64,000 nt of DNA, from the NCBI RefSeq assembly GCF_015350805.1, contig NZ_JADKSG010000001.1:806001-870000 (forward strand). Reading direction: 5' to 3'. Positions 29,354 to 36,178 of this stretch are shown piece after piece. The stretch comes from Herbiconiux sp. VKM Ac-1786. Lineage in GTDB: Bacteria; Actinomycetota; Actinomycetes; Actinomycetales; Microbacteriaceae. Every line of letters starts with the position of its first letter. Position 1 is the first letter of the stretch. A model generated the notes under the pieces. It was not told the origin of the DNA, searched no databases, and saw only the letters and a program-made list of their open reading frames with translations. The translations under genes were made by a program, and so were the position numbers.

Positions 29354-29836
29354 TCAGGGGGCGCGGAAGAAGTCCGTGAGGAGGACGGCACACGCCTCGG
29401 CGCGGACGCCCGCGATCACCTCGACGCGGTGGTTGAGGCGGCGGTCACGCAGCACGTCGTAGACCGAGCCCGCGGCGCCCGCCTTCTCGTCCCAGGCGCC
29501 GAACACCACGCGCGGCACCCGCGCCGAGAGGATCGCGCCCGCGCACATGACGCACGGCTCAAGCGTGACGACGAGGGTCGCCCCGGTCAGGTGCCAGTCG
29601 CCGAGTGCCTCGGCCGCCTGACGGAGGGCCAGCACCTCCGCGTGGGCGGTGGGGTCGTGGCGCGCCTCGCGCTCGTTGCGTCCGACGCCGATCACGGCAC
29701 CGGTCGCGTCGAGCACGATGGCGCCGACGGGGACGTCGTCGGTGTCGAGCGCTGCCTCGGCCTCGAGGAGCGCGACGCGCATCCACTCGTCGAGCACGGC
29801 CGCGGGCGGCAGTGGCGGGGCGGCGTTCTCGGGCAC
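29354..29836 (-). CDS. tadA: tRNA-specific adenosine deaminase
   Basis: TadA converts A34 of tRNA-Arg(ACG) to inosine and is normally essential in bacteria. The 160-aa product has the zinc deaminase signature: PTAHAEVLALRQAAEALGDW (HAE, catalytic Glu about residue 67) and LEPCVMCAGAILSARVPRVV (PCxxC), plus VFGAWDEKAGAAGS and the C-terminal VRAEACAVLLTDFFR typical of TadA. It starts with GTG and is divergent from upp, with 32 bp between starts. Confidence 0.94.
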   Translation of the reverse strand: MPENAAPPLPPAAVLDEWMRVALLEAEAALDTDDVPVGAIVLDATGAVIGVGRNEREARHDPTAHAEVLALRQAAEALGDWHLTGATLVVTLEPCVMCAGAILSARVPRVVFGAWDEKAGAAGSVYDVLRDRRLNHRVEVIAGVRAEACAVLLTDFFRAP

Positions 29837-29856
29837 GGTGGCGCCGTCCTCTCCAG

Positions 29857-29862
29857 TAGATT
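29857..29862 (+). promoter_or_regulatory. -10 element of upp (leaderless start)
   Basis: TAGATT ends 6 nt before the upp ATG; no Shine-Dalgarno is present. Confidence 0.5.
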
Positions 29863-29868
29863 GGCCTC

Positions 29869-30501
29869 ATGCGAGTTCACGTTGCCGATCACCCGCTCAT
29901 CACCCACAAGCTCACCGTGCTGCGCGACCGCACGACGCCCTCGCCGACGTTCCGCGCGCTCACCGAGGAGCTCGTGACCCTCCTAGCCTACGAGGCGACG
30001 CGCAACGTGAGCGTGGAGCCGATCACCATCCAGACCCCCGTCGCCGAGACGCAGGGCCTCGCGCTGAGCGAGCCGCGGCCGCTCGTGGTGCCGATCCTGC
30101 GCGCCGGGCTCGGCATGCTCGAAGGCATGGTGAAGCTGGTGCCGTCGGCCGAGGTCGGCTTCCTCGGCATGGTTCGTAACGAGGAGACCCTCGAGCCGAC
30201 CACGTACGCAGAGCGCCTGCCCGACGACCTCTCCGACCGCCAGTGCTTCGTGCTCGACCCGATGCTCGCGACCGGCGGCTCGCTCTCGGCCGCGATCGAG
30301 TTCCTCTTCGACCGCGGGGCGCAGGACGTCACCGCGATCTGCCTGCTCGGCGCCCCCGAGGGTGTCGCGGCGCTCGAGAAGGCCACGGAAGGACGCGACG
30401 TCACCCTCGTGCTCGGCGCCCTCGACGAGCGCCTGAACGAGAAGGGCTACATCGTGCCGGGCCTCGGCGACGCGGGCGACCGCCTGTACGGCCTGGTCTA
30501 G
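29869..30501 (+). CDS. upp: Uracil phosphoribosyltransferase
   Basis: Upp salvages uracil to UMP using PRPP. The 210-aa product is full length and contains [40 protein letters not shown], the PRPP-binding loop [19 protein letters not shown] and the uracil-binding C-terminus [17 protein letters not shown]. The arrangement tadA / upp divergent is common in actinobacteria. A TAGATT element immediately precedes the ATG. Confidence 0.97.
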
Positions 30502-31755: not shown

Positions 31756-33249
31756 CTACGGAGCCGCTGAACCGGCCGGCTCGCCGGCATCCGGAGCGGC
31801 CGCCTGCTTCGCCCGCCGCCGCAGGTCGAGCAGCCCGATCACGAGCGCCACCGCCAGCAACCCCAGCGCCACGAAGAACGCGTTGCGGAACCCGTCGTGG
31901 TAGATCATCACGTTGTCGGCGTTGCCCGGCCCCTCGCGGTACAGCGTCGCGAAGAAGATCGACGAGGCCGCCGCGACGCCCATCGCCGTGCCGACGCGCT
32001 GGCCGACCTGCGCCATCGAACCGGCCACGCCGCCCTCGGTCACCGGGATCTCGGCGAGCGTCAGCGTCTGGTTCGGCGAGATCACGAAGCCTCCGCCGGC
32101 CCCCGCGACCGCCATGGCCCCGGCCATCAGCCAGATCGACCATCCGGCCGGCGGCAGCACCGCCGCCAGCAGCACCAGCACGAAGCCGACCATCGCCACG
32201 ACGACGCCGATGACGACGAGCTTGCGGCCGACGCGCATCACGAGCCGCCCGCCGATCAGCGACGCGATCGCCGAGGTCAGCGCGAACGGGATGCTCACCA
32301 TCCCCGCGAACACCGGCTCGAACCCGAGCCCCTCCTGCAGGAACAGCGTCGTCAGCAGGAACACCGCCGGCACCGCCGCGAACCAGGCCGTCGCGAGCAG
32401 CAGCCCGTTGCGGTACGAGCTGATCGTGAAGAGCGAGAAGCGGATGGCCGGCGACTTGCCGCTCGCCTGGTACCGCCGCTCCCACCAGATGAACAGCGCC
32501 ACGGCGACGACCGTGCCCGCCAGCCAGAACCAGCGGAAGTTGCTGTCATCGGGCCCACCGGTGGTCAGCACGAACGGCAGCATGAAGGTGAAGACGGATG
32601 CTCCGAGCAGCACGATCCCGACGAGGTCGAGGTTCCTCGCGCCGGGGTCGCGCACCTGCGTCTTGGGCAGCAGCCTGATGGCGATCAGCAGCAACACGAT
32701 GCCGAGCGGCACGTTCATCCAGAACAGCAGGCGCCAGCCATCGGTGGGCCCGCCGATCGCGATGAGCAGCCCGCCGAGCGTCGGACCGAACGCCGTCGCC
32801 ACGCCGATCGTCGCCCCGAAGAGTCCGAAGGCGCGGCCGCGCTCCTCGCCCTGGAAGAGCTGCTGCACGAGCCCGAGCACCTGCGGCATCTGGATGCCCG
32901 CCGCCACACCCTGCACGATGCGCGCGATCACGAGCGTGTTGATGTCCGGCGCCACCGCGCAGGCCGCGCTCGCGAGGGTGAAGGCGCTGAGGCCGATGAT
33001 GAACAGCAGCTTGCGCGAGTAGAGGTCGCCGAGCCGGCCGGAGGGCACGAGCGCCAGGCCGAACGCGAGGGCGTACCCGGCGACGATGATCTGCAGCTCG
33101 GTCGGGCCGGCGCCGAGCGACTTCTCGATCGACGGCAGCCCGACGTTCACCTTCGACAGGTCGAGGATCGTCAGCGCGGCGACCGCGACGCAGACCGCGA
33201 AGGCCTGCCAGCGGGCCCGGTCGGCGATGGGTGGGGACGTCTGGGTCAT
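31756..33249 (-). CDS. MFS drug exporter, DHA2 (EmrB/QacA) family
   Basis: A 497-aa proton antiporter with about 14 membrane helices. DHA2 features: the helix-1 region ALTILDLSKVNVGLPSIEKS, motif A between helices 2 and 3 (SGRLGDLYSRKLLFIIGL) and motif C-like GATIGVATAFGPTLGGLLIA in helix 5. The D-x-x-x-V-N-V-x-L-P pattern is typical of multidrug exporters. It is divergent from the Cys-codon leader ORF and winged-helix regulator (113 bp between starts), which may control it. A GGAGCGAGG ribosome binding site precedes the ATG. The substrate is unknown. Confidence 0.9.
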   Translation of the reverse strand: MTQTSPPIADRARWQAFAVCVAVAALTILDLSKVNVGLPSIEKSLGAGPTELQIIVAGYALAFGLALVPSGRLGDLYSRKLLFIIGLSAFTLASAACAVAPDINTLVIARIVQGVAAGIQMPQVLGLVQQLFQGEERGRAFGLFGATIGVATAFGPTLGGLLIAIGGPTDGWRLLFWMNVPLGIVLLLIAIRLLPKTQVRDPGARNLDLVGIVLLGASVFTFMLPFVLTTGGPDDSNFRWFWLAGTVVAVALFIWWERRYQASGKSPAIRFSLFTISSYRNGLLLATAWFAAVPAVFLLTTLFLQEGLGFEPVFAGMVSIPFALTSAIASLIGGRLVMRVGRKLVVIGVVVAMVGFVLVLLAAVLPPAGWSIWLMAGAMAVAGAGGGFVISPNQTLTLAEIPVTEGGVAGSMAQVGQRVGTAMGVAAASSIFFATLYREGPGNADNVMIYHDGFRNAFFVALGLLAVALVIGLLDLRRRAKQAAAPDAGEPAGSAAP

Positions 33250-33324
33250 GCCTCGCTCCGGGTCATGGGGTCGAACCTATACCTCGGGCGACGCCGTGCC
33301 ACTGCACAGAAGTCGAGTGGATGC

Positions 33325-33354
33325 TTGACTTTCGTCTCACGGATCCGCTTTGAT
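33325..33354 (+). promoter_or_regulatory. Promoter of the Cys-codon leader ORF
   Basis: A -35-like TTGACT (33325-33330) and a -10 TTTGAT (33349-33354) are 18 bp apart. The predicted start falls at 33361-33362, on the ATG of the leader ORF, so that ORF is predicted to be leaderless. Confidence 0.55.
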
Positions 33355-33361
33355 TGTGCAC

Positions 33362-33460
33362 ATGACTGACAACGCGTTCGCCCCGACCTCCTTTGAGGCC
33401 CCCGGGAACGCCGGCATGATGGCCGGCGGCGCCGTCATGTGCTGTCGAATGTGTCGCTGA
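33362..33460 (+). CDS. 32-aa leader peptide ending in Cys-Cys-Arg-Met-Cys-Arg
   Basis: A short ORF whose last 14 residues are MMAGGAVMCCRMCR. Three of its last six codons are for cysteine, spelled TGC TGT ... TGT. It begins where transcription is predicted to begin and has no Shine-Dalgarno. The 183 nt after its stop hold two strong hairpins and then the winged-helix regulator gene. This is the architecture of cysteine-responsive leaderless uORFs reported in mycobacteria, in which slow Cys codons change downstream expression. I infer, but cannot show, such a role here; the peptide itself may have no function. Confidence 0.6.
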   Translation: MTDNAFAPTSFEAPGNAGMMAGGAVMCCRMCR

Positions 33461-33562
33461 CGAGAACCTTCCTCCTCTCGCTCGAGCATCGACCCCCGCG
33501 CATCTGATCGCGGAGAGCGTCGTGCTCCCCGGCATCCGTCTCATCTGATTCGGTCTGCCGTC

Positions 33563-33621
33563 TCCGGATCCGCACCAGGATCCTCCGGAATGACACATCT
33601 CCGGCCCGTCGACCACGGGCC
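33563..33621 (+). promoter_or_regulatory. Two mRNA hairpins between leader ORF and regulator
   Basis: The first pairs TCCGGATCC with GGATCCTCCGGA (33563-33588, one bulged base, 6-nt loop). The second pairs GGCCCGT with ACGGGCC (33603-33621, 5-nt loop) and ends 22 nt before the regulator ATG. Neither has a T-tract. They may form an attenuator or a structure that masks the ribosome binding site (AAGGAC). Confidence 0.55.
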
Positions 33622-33643
33622 GCTCCCGCAAGGACACTCCGCC

Positions 33644-34342
33644 ATGTCGATCGCCCACCTGGATTCCCGCCCCACCACCGTCACCCCCCTCCGTTCGGGC
33701 GTCGCCGCGGAGCCCACCGCCCGCATCCGCGCCGTGCCCGACGGCACCGAGGCCCGCGGCTTCGTGCTCTACGTCGGCATCGACGAGGACAAGGCCGCCG
33801 CCGACGGAACCGACCTCGGCCGCATCGTCGAGCAGCTCAAGGCCCTCGCCGCGCAGATCGCGCCGTCGTCGGAGACCTATGCCGCCGTCGCCCTCGCCCC
33901 CCGCGGCGCCGGCGGTCGCGACGTCGAGGTCGTGCGCCTCGCCCTGCAGGACCCGGCCGCCCTCGCCAAGCACCGCCAGGCTCCCGAGGAGGAGCAGGAC
34001 CGCGCCCGCGACGGCGTCGTCGTCGACCTCTCCCGCAAGCGGGTGCTGCTCGACAACCAGGCCGCCAACCTCACCTACAAGGAGTTCGAGCTGCTGCAGT
34101 ACCTCGTTCTGCGCGAGGGCCGCACCATCGAGCGCGCCGAGCTGATCGCGTCGCTCTGGTCGGCCGGCGACGAGGAGGTGCCGAACGAGCGCACCATCGA
34201 CGTGCACGTGCGGCGCCTGCGCTCGAAGCTCGGCGACTACGAGGACATCGTGCGCACCGTGCGCGGCGTCGGCTACCGCTTCGACCGGCACGCCGACGTC
34301 TCGGTGCGCCACACCTCGACGCCCTCGCCCGACCTGTTCTGA
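33644..34342 (+). CDS. OmpR-type winged-helix DNA-binding regulator without a receiver domain
   Basis: A 232-aa protein whose C-terminal half (about residues 125-215) is a Trans_reg_C winged helix: DLSRKRVLLDNQAANLTYKE, FELLQYLVLREGRTIERAEL and NERTIDVHVRRLRSKLGDYE followed by TVRGVGYRFDRH. The N-terminal half is not a receiver: no phospho-acceptor Asp or acidic pocket is seen, only GFVLYVGIDEDKAAADGTDL and ETYAAVALAPRG, of unknown fold. It is preceded by the Cys-codon ORF and hairpins and lies beside a drug-type exporter. The start ATG 33644 has AAGGAC upstream; an ATG 18 codons earlier is less likely. Confidence 0.85.
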   Translation: MSIAHLDSRPTTVTPLRSGVAAEPTARIRAVPDGTEARGFVLYVGIDEDKAAADGTDLGRIVEQLKALAAQIAPSSETYAAVALAPRGAGGRDVEVVRLALQDPAALAKHRQAPEEEQDRARDGVVVDLSRKRVLLDNQAANLTYKEFELLQYLVLREGRTIERAELIASLWSAGDEEVPNERTIDVHVRRLRSKLGDYEDIVRTVRGVGYRFDRHADVSVRHTSTPSPDLF

Positions 34343-34603
34343 GCCCTGCGTGCCCCTCGTTGTGGTGACACAGCGAACTCCCAGAAAAATAACGATTCGA
34401 TAACTAGCGCTCCGTTACCTAGCCGTTATATATTCATGGAGCGGAAGTTGTTTGCTGTGGCAGCTCCCGCGGAATGTGATTGCAGGACACTCTTGGTGCA
34501 AGGGAGAGGGCCCGTCGTTAGCCTCTACGACGGGCCCTCAATCATTTAACCTGCGGGGCCTATTGCCCCCTGCCCCTGCCCTTGCCTCTCCCGGCTCGCC
34601 GGT
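34343..34603. other. AT-richer intergenic patch, candidate small RNA
   Basis: No protein-coding gene is convincing here. Bases 34380-34440 are far richer in A and T than anything around and contain TTATATATT (a good -10) near 34425. From there to the terminator at 34506-34539 would be a transcript of about 100 nt. A 38-codon frame from the ATG at 34436 runs through the terminator stem and lacks a ribosome binding site, so I do not call it. Confidence 0.4.
34506..34539. terminator. Strong 13-bp stem terminator
   Basis: GAGGGCCCGTCGT and its exact complement (34527-34539) enclose an 8-nt loop and are followed by AATCATTTAA on the plus strand. It separates the winged-helix regulator from the converging cell-wall-binding protein gene and works in either direction. 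Confidence 0.8.
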
Positions 34604-36178
34604 TCAGCTGCACGGTGTGAGCTGCTCGACCTCCGGGCTCAGGGCCCTCTCGCCGCCGAGCAGCACGACGTGCTGGGCCCCCAGCCGCGCCATGTCGTCG
34701 AGCACCGACTGAGGCACGCAGTTCCCGGGGACCGTGTAGATCGGAGAGTGCCCGGCCCCGGCGGCCACACTCCCGACCAGCGCGTCGGGGAAGTTCAGCC
34801 CGGTGGCGAAATACACCGTGTCGGCCGTCGAGAAGACCGCCTTCGACACCGCCACCGCGGTCTCGTATCGATCAGCACCCATCAACCGGTCGACACTCGC
34901 CAGCCCCTTCAGCGTCGTCTCGATTCCATTCGAGACCGCATTGGGCCCGCCGACGACGGCCAGCCGCGACGTCGACAACCCCGACAGCGCCGCCTTCGTT
35001 TCCGCATCCACTGTCTCGGCCTGCCCGTTGACCATCAGCACCGGCTCGCCTCCGCTCCCGGCCGCGGCCCCCGCGGCCAGCGCATCCGGGAAGTTCAGCC
35101 CCGTGGTCACGAACGAATGCGCCGACGTCCCGAAGAACTGCTTCGCGATGGCCCGACTCACGACGAACCGATCGGCCCCACCGATCCGCTCGACCTTCGC
35201 CCCGACCGGCAGCAGCCGCGCGATCTCCGCCACCACTCCGTCCGAAATGGCCGCCGGCCCACCCACGACCGTCACCTTCATCGGCCTCAACCGCGATATC
35301 TCCCCCGCCGTAGCGCTTGGCAACGTCGCCTTGGTCGCCAGCAGCAACGCGGCCCCACTCTTCACGGCAGCCGGCGCAGCACTCAACGCATCGGCATACC
35401 CCTCCCCCGACGCCACCACCACATCCGCGGGCCCCACCGGATGCTCCCGCTGCGCCACCCCCGCAGCCACCGCAAACCGATCGGCACCCCCCACCCGCAC
35501 CACGTCCGGCCCCCCGCCTACGTTCAGGACGACAACGGCAGGATCGGACGCACAGGCCCCGCCGCCAAAGGTAGCCAGGCAGTACTGGAATGTGTCCAAC
35601 CCGATGTATGCAGGGTCCGTGAGGTTGTAGGTGAAAGCCCCGAAAAACGGGCTCGCCATGAAACTACCGTGCGTCGGCTTGGTGAGCCATGTCGGCTGCA
35701 AGCCACCCGACGGTTGATCATTGGCCATGACGCCCGGGGTGGTTACGACGAGAGGCGATCCGGCGGTGACGTCATATTGGTCGGGAACAGCGACTGACGC
35801 AGTGACGTCGATGTTTACTGTGGCGTCAGCCGAAACACACGGGCCACCGTCGAAATCTGCCGCCAGGCAATACGTGAAGTCGTCGTGACCGACGAAGGTT
35901 GCGTCGGTGGGTTCGTAAAGGAAGCCGCCCGGCACGGTCATGAAGTTGACGCTTCCATGTTTCGTTTTCGTCTTGAGCGTGTAGTGCAACCCAGGTGTGT
36001 CGTTCGCCAGATAGCCTGGACTTTCGACCTTCAGCTGCACCCCCTGATATGAGCTGTAGAAGTCATCCCTTGCCACCGGCAGACTGTCCGCAGATGCTGG
36101 CGAACTGCCAAGGCAGGTGACTGTGAGCAGGACAACAGCTGCTGAAGGCACCACAACGGGTGCTGTGAGTCGCCGCAT
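34604..36178 (-). CDS. Secreted surface protein with two cadherin-like modules and three CWB2 repeats
   Basis: A 524-aa exported protein. A signal peptide (residues 1-31, ending SSPASA) is followed by two similar Ig/cadherin-like modules (about 32-125 and 126-215). Each opens D-x-Y and contains LANDTPG or MANDQPS, KHGS or THGS, and YCLA with a second Cys about ten residues later (GGPC, GGAC), probably a disulfide. Three cell wall-binding repeats 2 (CWB2) follow, starting VRVGGADRFAVAAGVA, VERIGGADRFVVSRAIA and VDRLMGADRYETAVAVS; these anchor proteins to cell-wall polymers. The half encoding the modules is visibly lower in GC than neighbouring genes, suggesting acquisition or recombination. 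It is divergent from a MarR regulator. Confidence 0.88.
   Translation of the reverse strand: MRRLTAPVVVPSAAVVLLTVTCLGSSPASADSLPVARDDFYSSYQGVQLKVESPGYLANDTPGLHYTLKTKTKHGSVNFMTVPGGFLYEPTDATFVGHDDFTYCLAADFDGGPCVSADATVNIDVTASVAVPDQYDVTAGSPLVVTTPGVMANDQPSGGLQPTWLTKPTHGSFMASPFFGAFTYNLTDPAYIGLDTFQYCLATFGGGACASDPAVVVLNVGGGPDVVRVGGADRFAVAAGVAQREHPVGPADVVVASGEGYADALSAAPAAVKSGAALLLATKATLPSATAGEISRLRPMKVTVVGGPAAISDGVVAEIARLLPVGAKVERIGGADRFVVSRAIAKQFFGTSAHSFVTTGLNFPDALAAGAAAGSGGEPVLMVNGQAETVDAETKAALSGLSTSRLAVVGGPNAVSNGIETTLKGLASVDRLMGADRYETAVAVSKAVFSTADTVYFATGLNFPDALVGSVAAGAGHSPIYTVPGNCVPQSVLDDMARLGAQHVVLLGGERALSPEVEQLTPCS

Follow-up and report, generated by a model that had tools for sequence, protein, structure and literature searches.

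The gene for an OmpR-type winged-helix regulator in Herbiconiux is preceded by a short upstream open reading frame (uORF) that recurs across the Microbacteriaceae, is predicted to start at the very 5' end of its transcript, and is as rich in Met and Cys as the regulator is poor in them. On balance it seems probable, if by no means secure, that this leaderless leader ORF senses the supply of sulfur amino acids and controls the sulfur-free regulator behind it. The fuller reading is offered tentatively and is less likely true than not: a family-wide sulfur-starvation switch, in bacteria mostly unable to reduce sulfate, in which the uORF would read both Cys and Met through a cluster of codons pinned by CGA and through its own folded RNA, and would induce a regulator that needs no sulfur.

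The window, which is the whole stretch of 64,000 nt that was analysed, is from Herbiconiux (Microbacteriaceae), and the nearest named orthologue of its regulator is in H. gentiana (96%). The features of the locus are in Table 1. TTG 33350 is a possible alternative start in the frame of the uORF; the start that relatives conserve is the ATG at 33362. A search of Rfam over 33000-34700 gave no credible match, the single one being at E 0.74 and far below its cut-off.

Table 1. Features at the uORF-regulator locus of Herbiconiux, by position in the window
Feature	Position	Strand	Basis or remark
tadA (tRNA adenosine deaminase, named by eye from its translation)	29357-29866	-	located in the window only; 3.5 kb upstream
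upp, divergent from tadA	29869-30501	+	upstream of the uORF in the window
Promoter, -35 TTGACT (33325-33330) and -10 TTGATT (33350-33355)	33325-33355	+	elements shared by relatives
Predicted leaderless uORF, 32 codons, MTDNAFAPTSFEAPGNAGMMAGGAVMCCRMCR then stop	33362-33460	+	ORF translation; counterparts in relatives
Hairpin P2 in uORF coding RNA, CCUC-CUUU-GAGG	33387-33398	+	helix 3; seen too when the window's own uORF is folded
Hairpin P3 around Met codons, GCCGGC-AUGAUG-GCCGGC	33410-33427	+	helix 4; also in the window's own fold
Proposed stall site, codons Met-Cys-Cys-Arg(CGA)-Met-Cys-Arg-stop	33437-33460	+	constancy of CGA in relatives
C-rich structured leader, uORF stop to regulator start, 183 nt	33461-33643	+	composition, fold z
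Hairpin 1, CCGGAUCC-GCACCA-GGAUCCUCCGG	33564-33588	+	RNA fold
Hairpin 2, 8 pairs, directly before the Shine-Dalgarno	33602-33622	+	RNA fold
Shine-Dalgarno of the regulator, AAGGA	33630-33634	+	AAGGA type before a conserved MS(I/L) start in most relatives
Winged-helix OmpR-type regulator, 232 residues, no Cys, no internal Met	33644-34342	+	ORF, Pfam
Conserved non-coding element directly after the regulator	34399-34550	+	candidate small RNA

Conservation of the uORF in the Microbacteriaceae

The loci compared were 30 from relatives and 80 from named genomes, 110 in sets that overlap in species. A counterpart of the uORF is present 5' of the orthologous regulator in 109 of these, and the remaining locus, L055, is cut short and starts too near the regulator for its uORF to be judged. 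The preliminary description of this DNA had picked out a 32-codon ORF ending C-C-R-M-C-R with the regulator downstream of it; the ORF is real, its tail Cys codons are conserved near the stop across relatives, and the regulator is the conserved downstream gene across the Microbacteriaceae loci. Loss of the uORF and its Cys codons from orthologous loci, which would have spoken against that description, is not what was found.

An ORF ending C-R-M-C-x-stop precedes the regulator in 101 of the 110 loci, 90 of them distinct in sequence. Seven of the other nine have a uORF ending CCRM[S/H]x-stop, with Ser or His in place of the last Cys, and that of L030, which was left out of the 90-locus set, ends CACRMCCCC-stop. 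The 90 loci were picked by the peptide pattern C-R-M-C, so that those two Cys are given by the selection, while the CGA codon is not. For the uORF start, the in-frame ATG that gave a length closest to 33 codons was used, and a script chose the regulator starts; the former was set by hand in L073 and L102 and the latter in L001 and L002. The uORFs of the 90 loci have 25, 26, 32, 33, 34, 38, and 45 codons. Five of six further loci in the family keep the Met/Cys tail in other wordings (RRRMCR in L144, by eye, CRMRA in L145, RCRMCR in L147, CMCMCMCMCR in L148, and SKMCA in L149), and the sixth, L146, has no recognisable uORF. Tail wordings in diverged genomes of the family thus include PCSMCMCMCMCR, RCRMCR, and SKMCA. 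In the f7 relative L143 a candidate uORF, MHRSPCHRLARSAIAMMRCVRGLR, was seen by eye.

The tail pattern TGYCGAATGTGYNNNTRA is present in 126 of 199 genomes of the family and its reversed-pattern control in none of the 199, which, together with the recurrence of the uORF before regulator orthologues, indicates that the uORF is more than a product of chance. The C-R-M-C tail pattern occurs a single time in the Herbiconiux genome itself. Among 16 pattern-positive genomes in which the position of the regulator is known, the match is at the regulator in 15; the sole match in G019 is elsewhere, its uORF (L019) ending CCRMHA, and a further match, unlinked to the regulator, is present in each of G018 and G034. 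A looser CGN pattern was found in 19 of 21 genomes inside the family and 28 of 373 outside it in a sample of the class, and since its reversed control was found in 11 of the 394 genomes, the looser pattern outside the Microbacteriaceae is not far above chance.

Promoter and predicted transcript start

Relative to the ATG of the uORF, information content across the 90 distinct loci is highest at -36 to -33 (TTGAC type) and at -13 to -7. A T[AT]nnnT hexamer is at -13 to -8 in 50 and at -12 to -7 in 24 (74 of the 90), and position -1 is C or T in all 90; in the window, the -10 ends 6 nt before the ATG. By this near-fixed promoter spacing and the pyrimidine at -1, a transcript start on the ATG itself, and so leaderless initiation, is well supported on comparative grounds, as had been predicted for the window before relatives were compared. 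A strict consensus promoter scanner reported no promoter at the uORF, because it accepts a -10 only with A as its second base.

In Agromyces loci such as L093, L097, and L101, a GTCAT/GTCAC-type direct repeat, spaced at 11 bases, was seen by eye adjoining the -35. This could be a candidate OmpR-type operator for autoregulation.

Tail codons and evidence of coding

Without exception, the 90 loci encode the tail Arg by CGA, as do 8 of 8 further loci; the more distant uORFs of L149 and L148 depart from this, with AAA in this position in L149 and no such codon in L148. CGA makes up 3.5% of the Arg codons in the regulators (78 of 2,216) and 10.7% in flanking ORFs. Selection of the loci was on the peptide and not on the codon, yet CGA is constant, and the tail TGY-CGA-ATG is therefore held at the codon or nucleotide level. 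The last two tail Cys codons are TGT in 77 and 65 of the 90 loci (TGT:TGC 77:13 and 65:25), where TGT is 12.5% of the Cys codons in flanking ORFs. Cys-Cys is present in 74 of the 90 tails with a third Cys two codons on, and there is no longer run there within the 90. Scarce codons such as TGT and CGA just before the uORF stop are what a stall site would be expected to have.

An open frame is a precondition of the ORF search, and signs of coding are therefore needed that are independent of it. Three such signs point to translation of the uORF: the near-fixed distance from the promoter despite differences in length, the use of all three stop codons (TGA 46, TAA 31, and TAG 13 over the 90 loci), and the use of both TGT and TGC for the same Cys.

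Covariation in the uORF coding RNA

An alignment was made of the 56 distinct gapless uORFs of exactly 33 codons, representing 62 of the 90 loci and thus not including the 32-codon uORF of the window. Its fold has 21 pairs in four helices; 85.2% of cells are paired in it and 33-45% in slid versions, a comparison in which the fold is favoured by being derived from the same sequences. Changes on both sides are seen in 14 of the 21 pairs (shuffle mean 7.8) and there are 58 double-change cells (shuffle mean 19.3), neither value being reached in any of 500 shuffles; here relatedness favours the fold over the shuffles, and the more robust measures are those based on counts of pairs and types. Helix 3 (P2) has 87.1% of cells paired and double changes in 3 of 5 pairs among the 56 relatives. 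In helix 4 (P3), which in many relatives reads GGCAU-GAUG-AUGCC, 7 of 9 pairs have double changes, such as GC to AU in 4 sequences. The folding energy of the uORF alone is modest, with a mean z of -1.37 and 10 of 47 loci below -2, these 47 of the 90 having been picked by us across clades, and the window's own uORF is at -1.14. Taken together, the covariation indicates that the coding RNA of the uORF is folded.

One of these helices encloses the Met codons, and conservation of the 'GMMMP' motif is therefore partly conservation of RNA. Some relatives (e.g., L060 and L063) have no Met run in the uORF. The earlier view of the uORF as one of Cys codons alone holds as far as those codons are conserved; it is incomplete in that Met codons are widely conserved too and the coding RNA is structured, and it passed over CGA, which varies least among the tail codons.

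A structured, covarying coding RNA could explain part of the conservation through RNA function, and the uORF might then be translated and sense nothing, doing no more than set a constant level of the regulator, whether by keeping the leader open or by acting as an RNA element that also has coding potential. We consider this unlikely, although it is the best placed of the alternatives, as the other Met/Cys wordings, the use of both Cys codons, and the three stops all point to amino acid identity being kept and not to one RNA shape.

The regulator and its lack of sulfur

Pfam finds Trans_reg_C (PF00486) at residues 139-213 of the regulator (E 3.6e-22) as the sole match and no receiver domain, in agreement with the preliminary description of an OmpR-type DNA-binding protein without one. 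In AlphaFold2 predictions, for which 36 regulators were the input, most of residues 121-220 is good (block mean pLDDT 71-93 for 131-220), and residues 1-120 are without strands and mostly of low confidence (block means 34-84). In the PDB list, the entries nearest to its DNA-binding domain are 8hml, 8hig, and 8hih, which we take to be GlnR. That the regulator is itself GlnR was rejected, as the genome has a separate and closer candidate, L181 (by eye).

Met, with the initiator excluded, makes up 14.6% of the uORFs and Cys 9.2%, about 24% together, and the 90 regulators have no Cys and three non-initiator Met in 21,821 amino acids, although orthologues do not count as independent samples. As a control, 20 related regulators encoded in the same genomes, counted as far as the fetched stretches reach, have 28 Cys and 19 Met, 47 in 4,700 amino acids. 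In 328 flanking ORFs, Cys is 0.714% and Met 1.635%, and 12 of the 328 are without any sulfur residue. The scarcity of sulfur in the regulator may be independent of the uORF, since in relatives L141 and L142, which have no recognised Cys uORF, the matched part of the regulator has no Cys and one Met; the regulators of L148 and L149 have 2 and 3 Cys. The contrast between uORF and regulator supports the sulfur-sensing reading without proving it.

The leader between the uORF and the regulator

The two hairpins that had been described 5' of the regulator are borne out, with a fold z of -4.03 for 33560-33625 and none of 200 shuffles as good; over the whole 282 nt the fold stands out less, at z -1.76, and 9 of 200 shuffles match it. 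Across the 47 loci the leader folds better than its shuffles, with a mean z of -2.3 and 26 loci below -2. No intrinsic terminator with a U-tract was found in 33230-34600.

It had been proposed that ribosome stalling alters the folding downstream, and conserved pairing between the uORF and the leader was not found behind this claim: the uORF tail against the leader gives a mean duplex z of +0.24 with 3 of 90 loci below -2, and five uORF segments against two leader regions give means of -0.31 to +0.30 over the 47 loci, the largest count, 5 of the 47 below -2, coming from uORF nt 58-75 paired with the final 60 nt. Pairings of tail and leader picked out by eye in Herbiconiux (AUGUGUC:GACACAU), Agreia (CGAAUG[U]GUGC:GCACCAUUCG), and Agromyces (CGAAUG[U]GCC:GGCCAUUCG), and others hinted at in per-clade consensus folds, are not above shuffled leaders; clade-specific helices between uORF and leader are possible.

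CATCAT is found within 60 nt 5' of the regulator start in 41 of the 90 loci (e.g., L046, L082, and L060) and once in the remaining 11,615 nt of leaders. Its pairing with the AUGAUG of the Met codons was rejected as a general rule, 10 loci having CATCAT without ATGATG and 47 ATGATG without CATCAT.

The leader has more C than G in all 90 loci, with a median C/G of 1.67 against 0.98 upstream of the promoter. Such a C-rich, G-poor leader would also suit the same sensor acting with the opposite sign, in which a stall leaves the leader open to Rho or the regulator start masked and shortage lowers the regulator; for the copper uORF CruR, PMC9426467 describes how relief of arrest triggers termination by Rho in the stretch that separates the uORF from its gene. 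The hint of Rho from composition is weakened by the regulator genes, which are likewise C-rich with a C/G between those of the leader and the upstream sequence, at about 1.3 (C 0.403, G 0.309), and a sulfur-free regulator fits better as a protein that is needed in sulfur shortage. The opposite sign comes second among the alternatives and is judged improbable.

Neighbouring genes and a downstream RNA element

The usual neighbour of the uORF-regulator unit is upp, which is 5' of it, on the same strand and within 400 nt, in 68 of the 90 loci, although L001-L030 extend only 1.5 kb upstream and missing neighbours there may be out of range. A divergent DHA2 exporter, thought earlier to be a possible target, is the neighbour in 16 of 90 loci, which are exactly the 16 from Herbiconiux. 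The exporter stands outside the conserved unit.

That the usual neighbour is upp, and no metal gene, bears on a reading in which the nascent peptide is the sensor, its Met and Cys side chains binding copper or another soft metal or reporting redox state, with arrest or release as the result. Much of the peptide is conserved beyond its Cys (GMMM, MCCRMC) and copper-sensing uORFs are known (PMC9426467, PMC9973294). Against this, the Cys cluster lies within some six residues of the stop and would be inside the ribosome while it matters, RNA folding explains part of the peptide conservation, the window's peptide has no Pfam or NCBIfam match, and no RAPP, Pro-rich arrest motif, or signal peptide was seen by eye in the uORF peptides of the loci compared. 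We place this reading third, with little probability.

TadA makes the inosine needed for reading CGA. That the cluster reports CGA decoding by inosine-34 tRNA-Arg would accord with the constancy of CGA and with tadA beside upp, but it is very improbable, given that tadA was located in the window only, that CGA may persist merely as a slow codon, and that L149 and L148 do without it.

The strongly conserved non-coding element at 34399-34550 consists of a promoter block with a large dyad (ATAACG..GTAAC / GTTACC..CGTTAT) followed by an RNA of about 110 nt, with a 5' stem changing on both sides (by eye), a near-invariant GGAATGTGATTGCAGGACACTCTTGGTGCAAGGG, and a terminator-like stem. Matches by blastn are present in 70 of 110 loci, from which 64 distinct copies were aligned, and the element is on the other strand in Cryobacterium and in one Subtercola locus. 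The fold z of the window copy is -3.85 and there is no Rfam match in the window or in the loci of 8 relatives, which makes this a candidate small RNA of no recognised family.

Sulfur metabolism

In the genomes tested, that of the window included, the family PAPS_reduct (PF01507) is missing from all 16 of Herbiconiux and from 24 of 25 of the Microbacteriaceae, and is present in 8 of 15 other genomes of the order and in all 14 named control genomes. Sulfate assimilation has thus probably been lost in the Herbiconiux and Microbacteriaceae tested, which would probably depend on reduced sulfur. To our knowledge, control of sulfur metabolism in the Microbacteriaceae has not been described. The metE family is present in 4 of 13 Herbiconiux genomes. 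The repeat CGTTAC-N5-CGTTAT, from the promoter of the downstream RNA, occurs once in the genome at 0 mismatches, and none of its four 1-mismatch sites is near recognisable sulfur genes. Neither the metE family nor these sites in the genome tied a sulfur gene to the regulator.

Proposed mechanism

In the preferred, sulfur-sensing reading, transcription would begin on the ATG of a uORF of which about a quarter is Met and Cys and which ends in the scarce-codon cluster C-C-R(CGA)-M-C-R/A-stop. With ample charged tRNA-Cys, and probably tRNA-Met too, ribosomes would complete the uORF, and its RNA and the C-rich leader would then fold or lie open to Rho, keeping the level of the regulator low. When sulfur amino acids are short, a ribosome would stall on the cluster, the P1/P3 fold of the uORF would be kept open, and the stalled ribosome would shield the leader, so that output of the regulator goes up, at a step that may be translational (a masked start) or Rho. 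The regulator could be made in sulfur shortage because it needs almost no sulfur. Sequence comparison establishes the uORF with its Cys, Met, and CGA conservation, the promoter spacing, the coding-RNA fold, the structured C-rich leader, the sulfur-free regulator, and the absence of the PAPS-reductase family from most genomes of the family tested; we infer the stalling and its sign, the output step, the RNA switch, the sensing, and the regulon.

If this is true, the Microbacteriaceae have a sulfur-shortage regulator that can be recognised through its own leader, and Cys attenuation extends from metabolic genes to a regulator. The logic, in which the scarce residue is used for sensing and the protein of the response is independent of it (24% against almost none), is testable, and the leader permits codon identity, RNA fold, and peptide to be separated by recoding.

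Comparison with known systems

The regulator shares the winged-helix domain of the two-component OmpR/PhoB response regulators and, unlike them, has no receiver domain that could be found. The DNA-binding domains nearest to its own in the PDB list are those of the GlnR-type orphan OmpR regulators, from which it differs in that its genome carries a separate protein of that type (L181) and in its missing receiver domain. Unlike a classical transcription attenuator, the locus has no U-tract terminator in the region searched. The copper uORFs (CruR, with DUF2946, and CutF) differ from this one, in which there is no DUF2946 or other Pfam match and none of the peptide motifs looked for by eye.

The leader of whiB7/wblC answers to ribosome-targeting antibiotics via an intrinsic terminator and is not known to have any Cys codon logic. 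It resembles the present one as an actinobacterial leader 5' of a transcription regulator, uORF attenuation of whiB7/wblC being among the cases cited in PMC13236596. The claim that a regulator would be a new type of target is thus too broad, since a regulator behind an attenuating uORF is not new; it holds, as far as we have seen, for Cys attenuators. Literature searches around the Cys leader theme returned no paper on this locus among the best matches.

Candidate cys leader peptides in Mycobacterium, P. acnes, and B. longum are presented in PMC1262725 as short ORFs with Cys runs near the stop and no conserved terminator, for which Rho was suggested too; in its sections on these leaders they precede cys operons or cbs, and none is described 5' of a regulator. 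Cys-rich leaderless uORFs of mycobacteria were proposed in PMC4633059, and the polycysteine leaderless ORFs were tested by Canestrari et al. 2020, according to the summaries in PMC9031893, PMC9094748, and PMC13236596, where the speed of the ribosome is said to depend on Cys and the ORFs precede the genes reportedly controlled. Like these attenuators, the Herbiconiux uORF is predicted, by comparison of relatives, to be at the 5' end of its transcript and has contiguous Cys codons near its stop. Unlike them, its target is a sulfur-free winged-helix regulator and not cysteine biosynthesis genes, Met codons and a constant CGA are in the cluster, and the coding RNA has a covarying fold; against the masking of the Shine-Dalgarno in the mycobacterial case, there is here no general excess of complementarity between uORF and leader. 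As a target in sulfur metabolism, one of the defining features of the mycobacterial type, is missing here and the response to Cys is a predicted one, the uORF is not filed as a member of that type. By analogy, the best reading is nevertheless of a Herbiconiux leader that would operate as the mycobacterial Cys attenuators do, on a target of a new kind and with a possible Met input.
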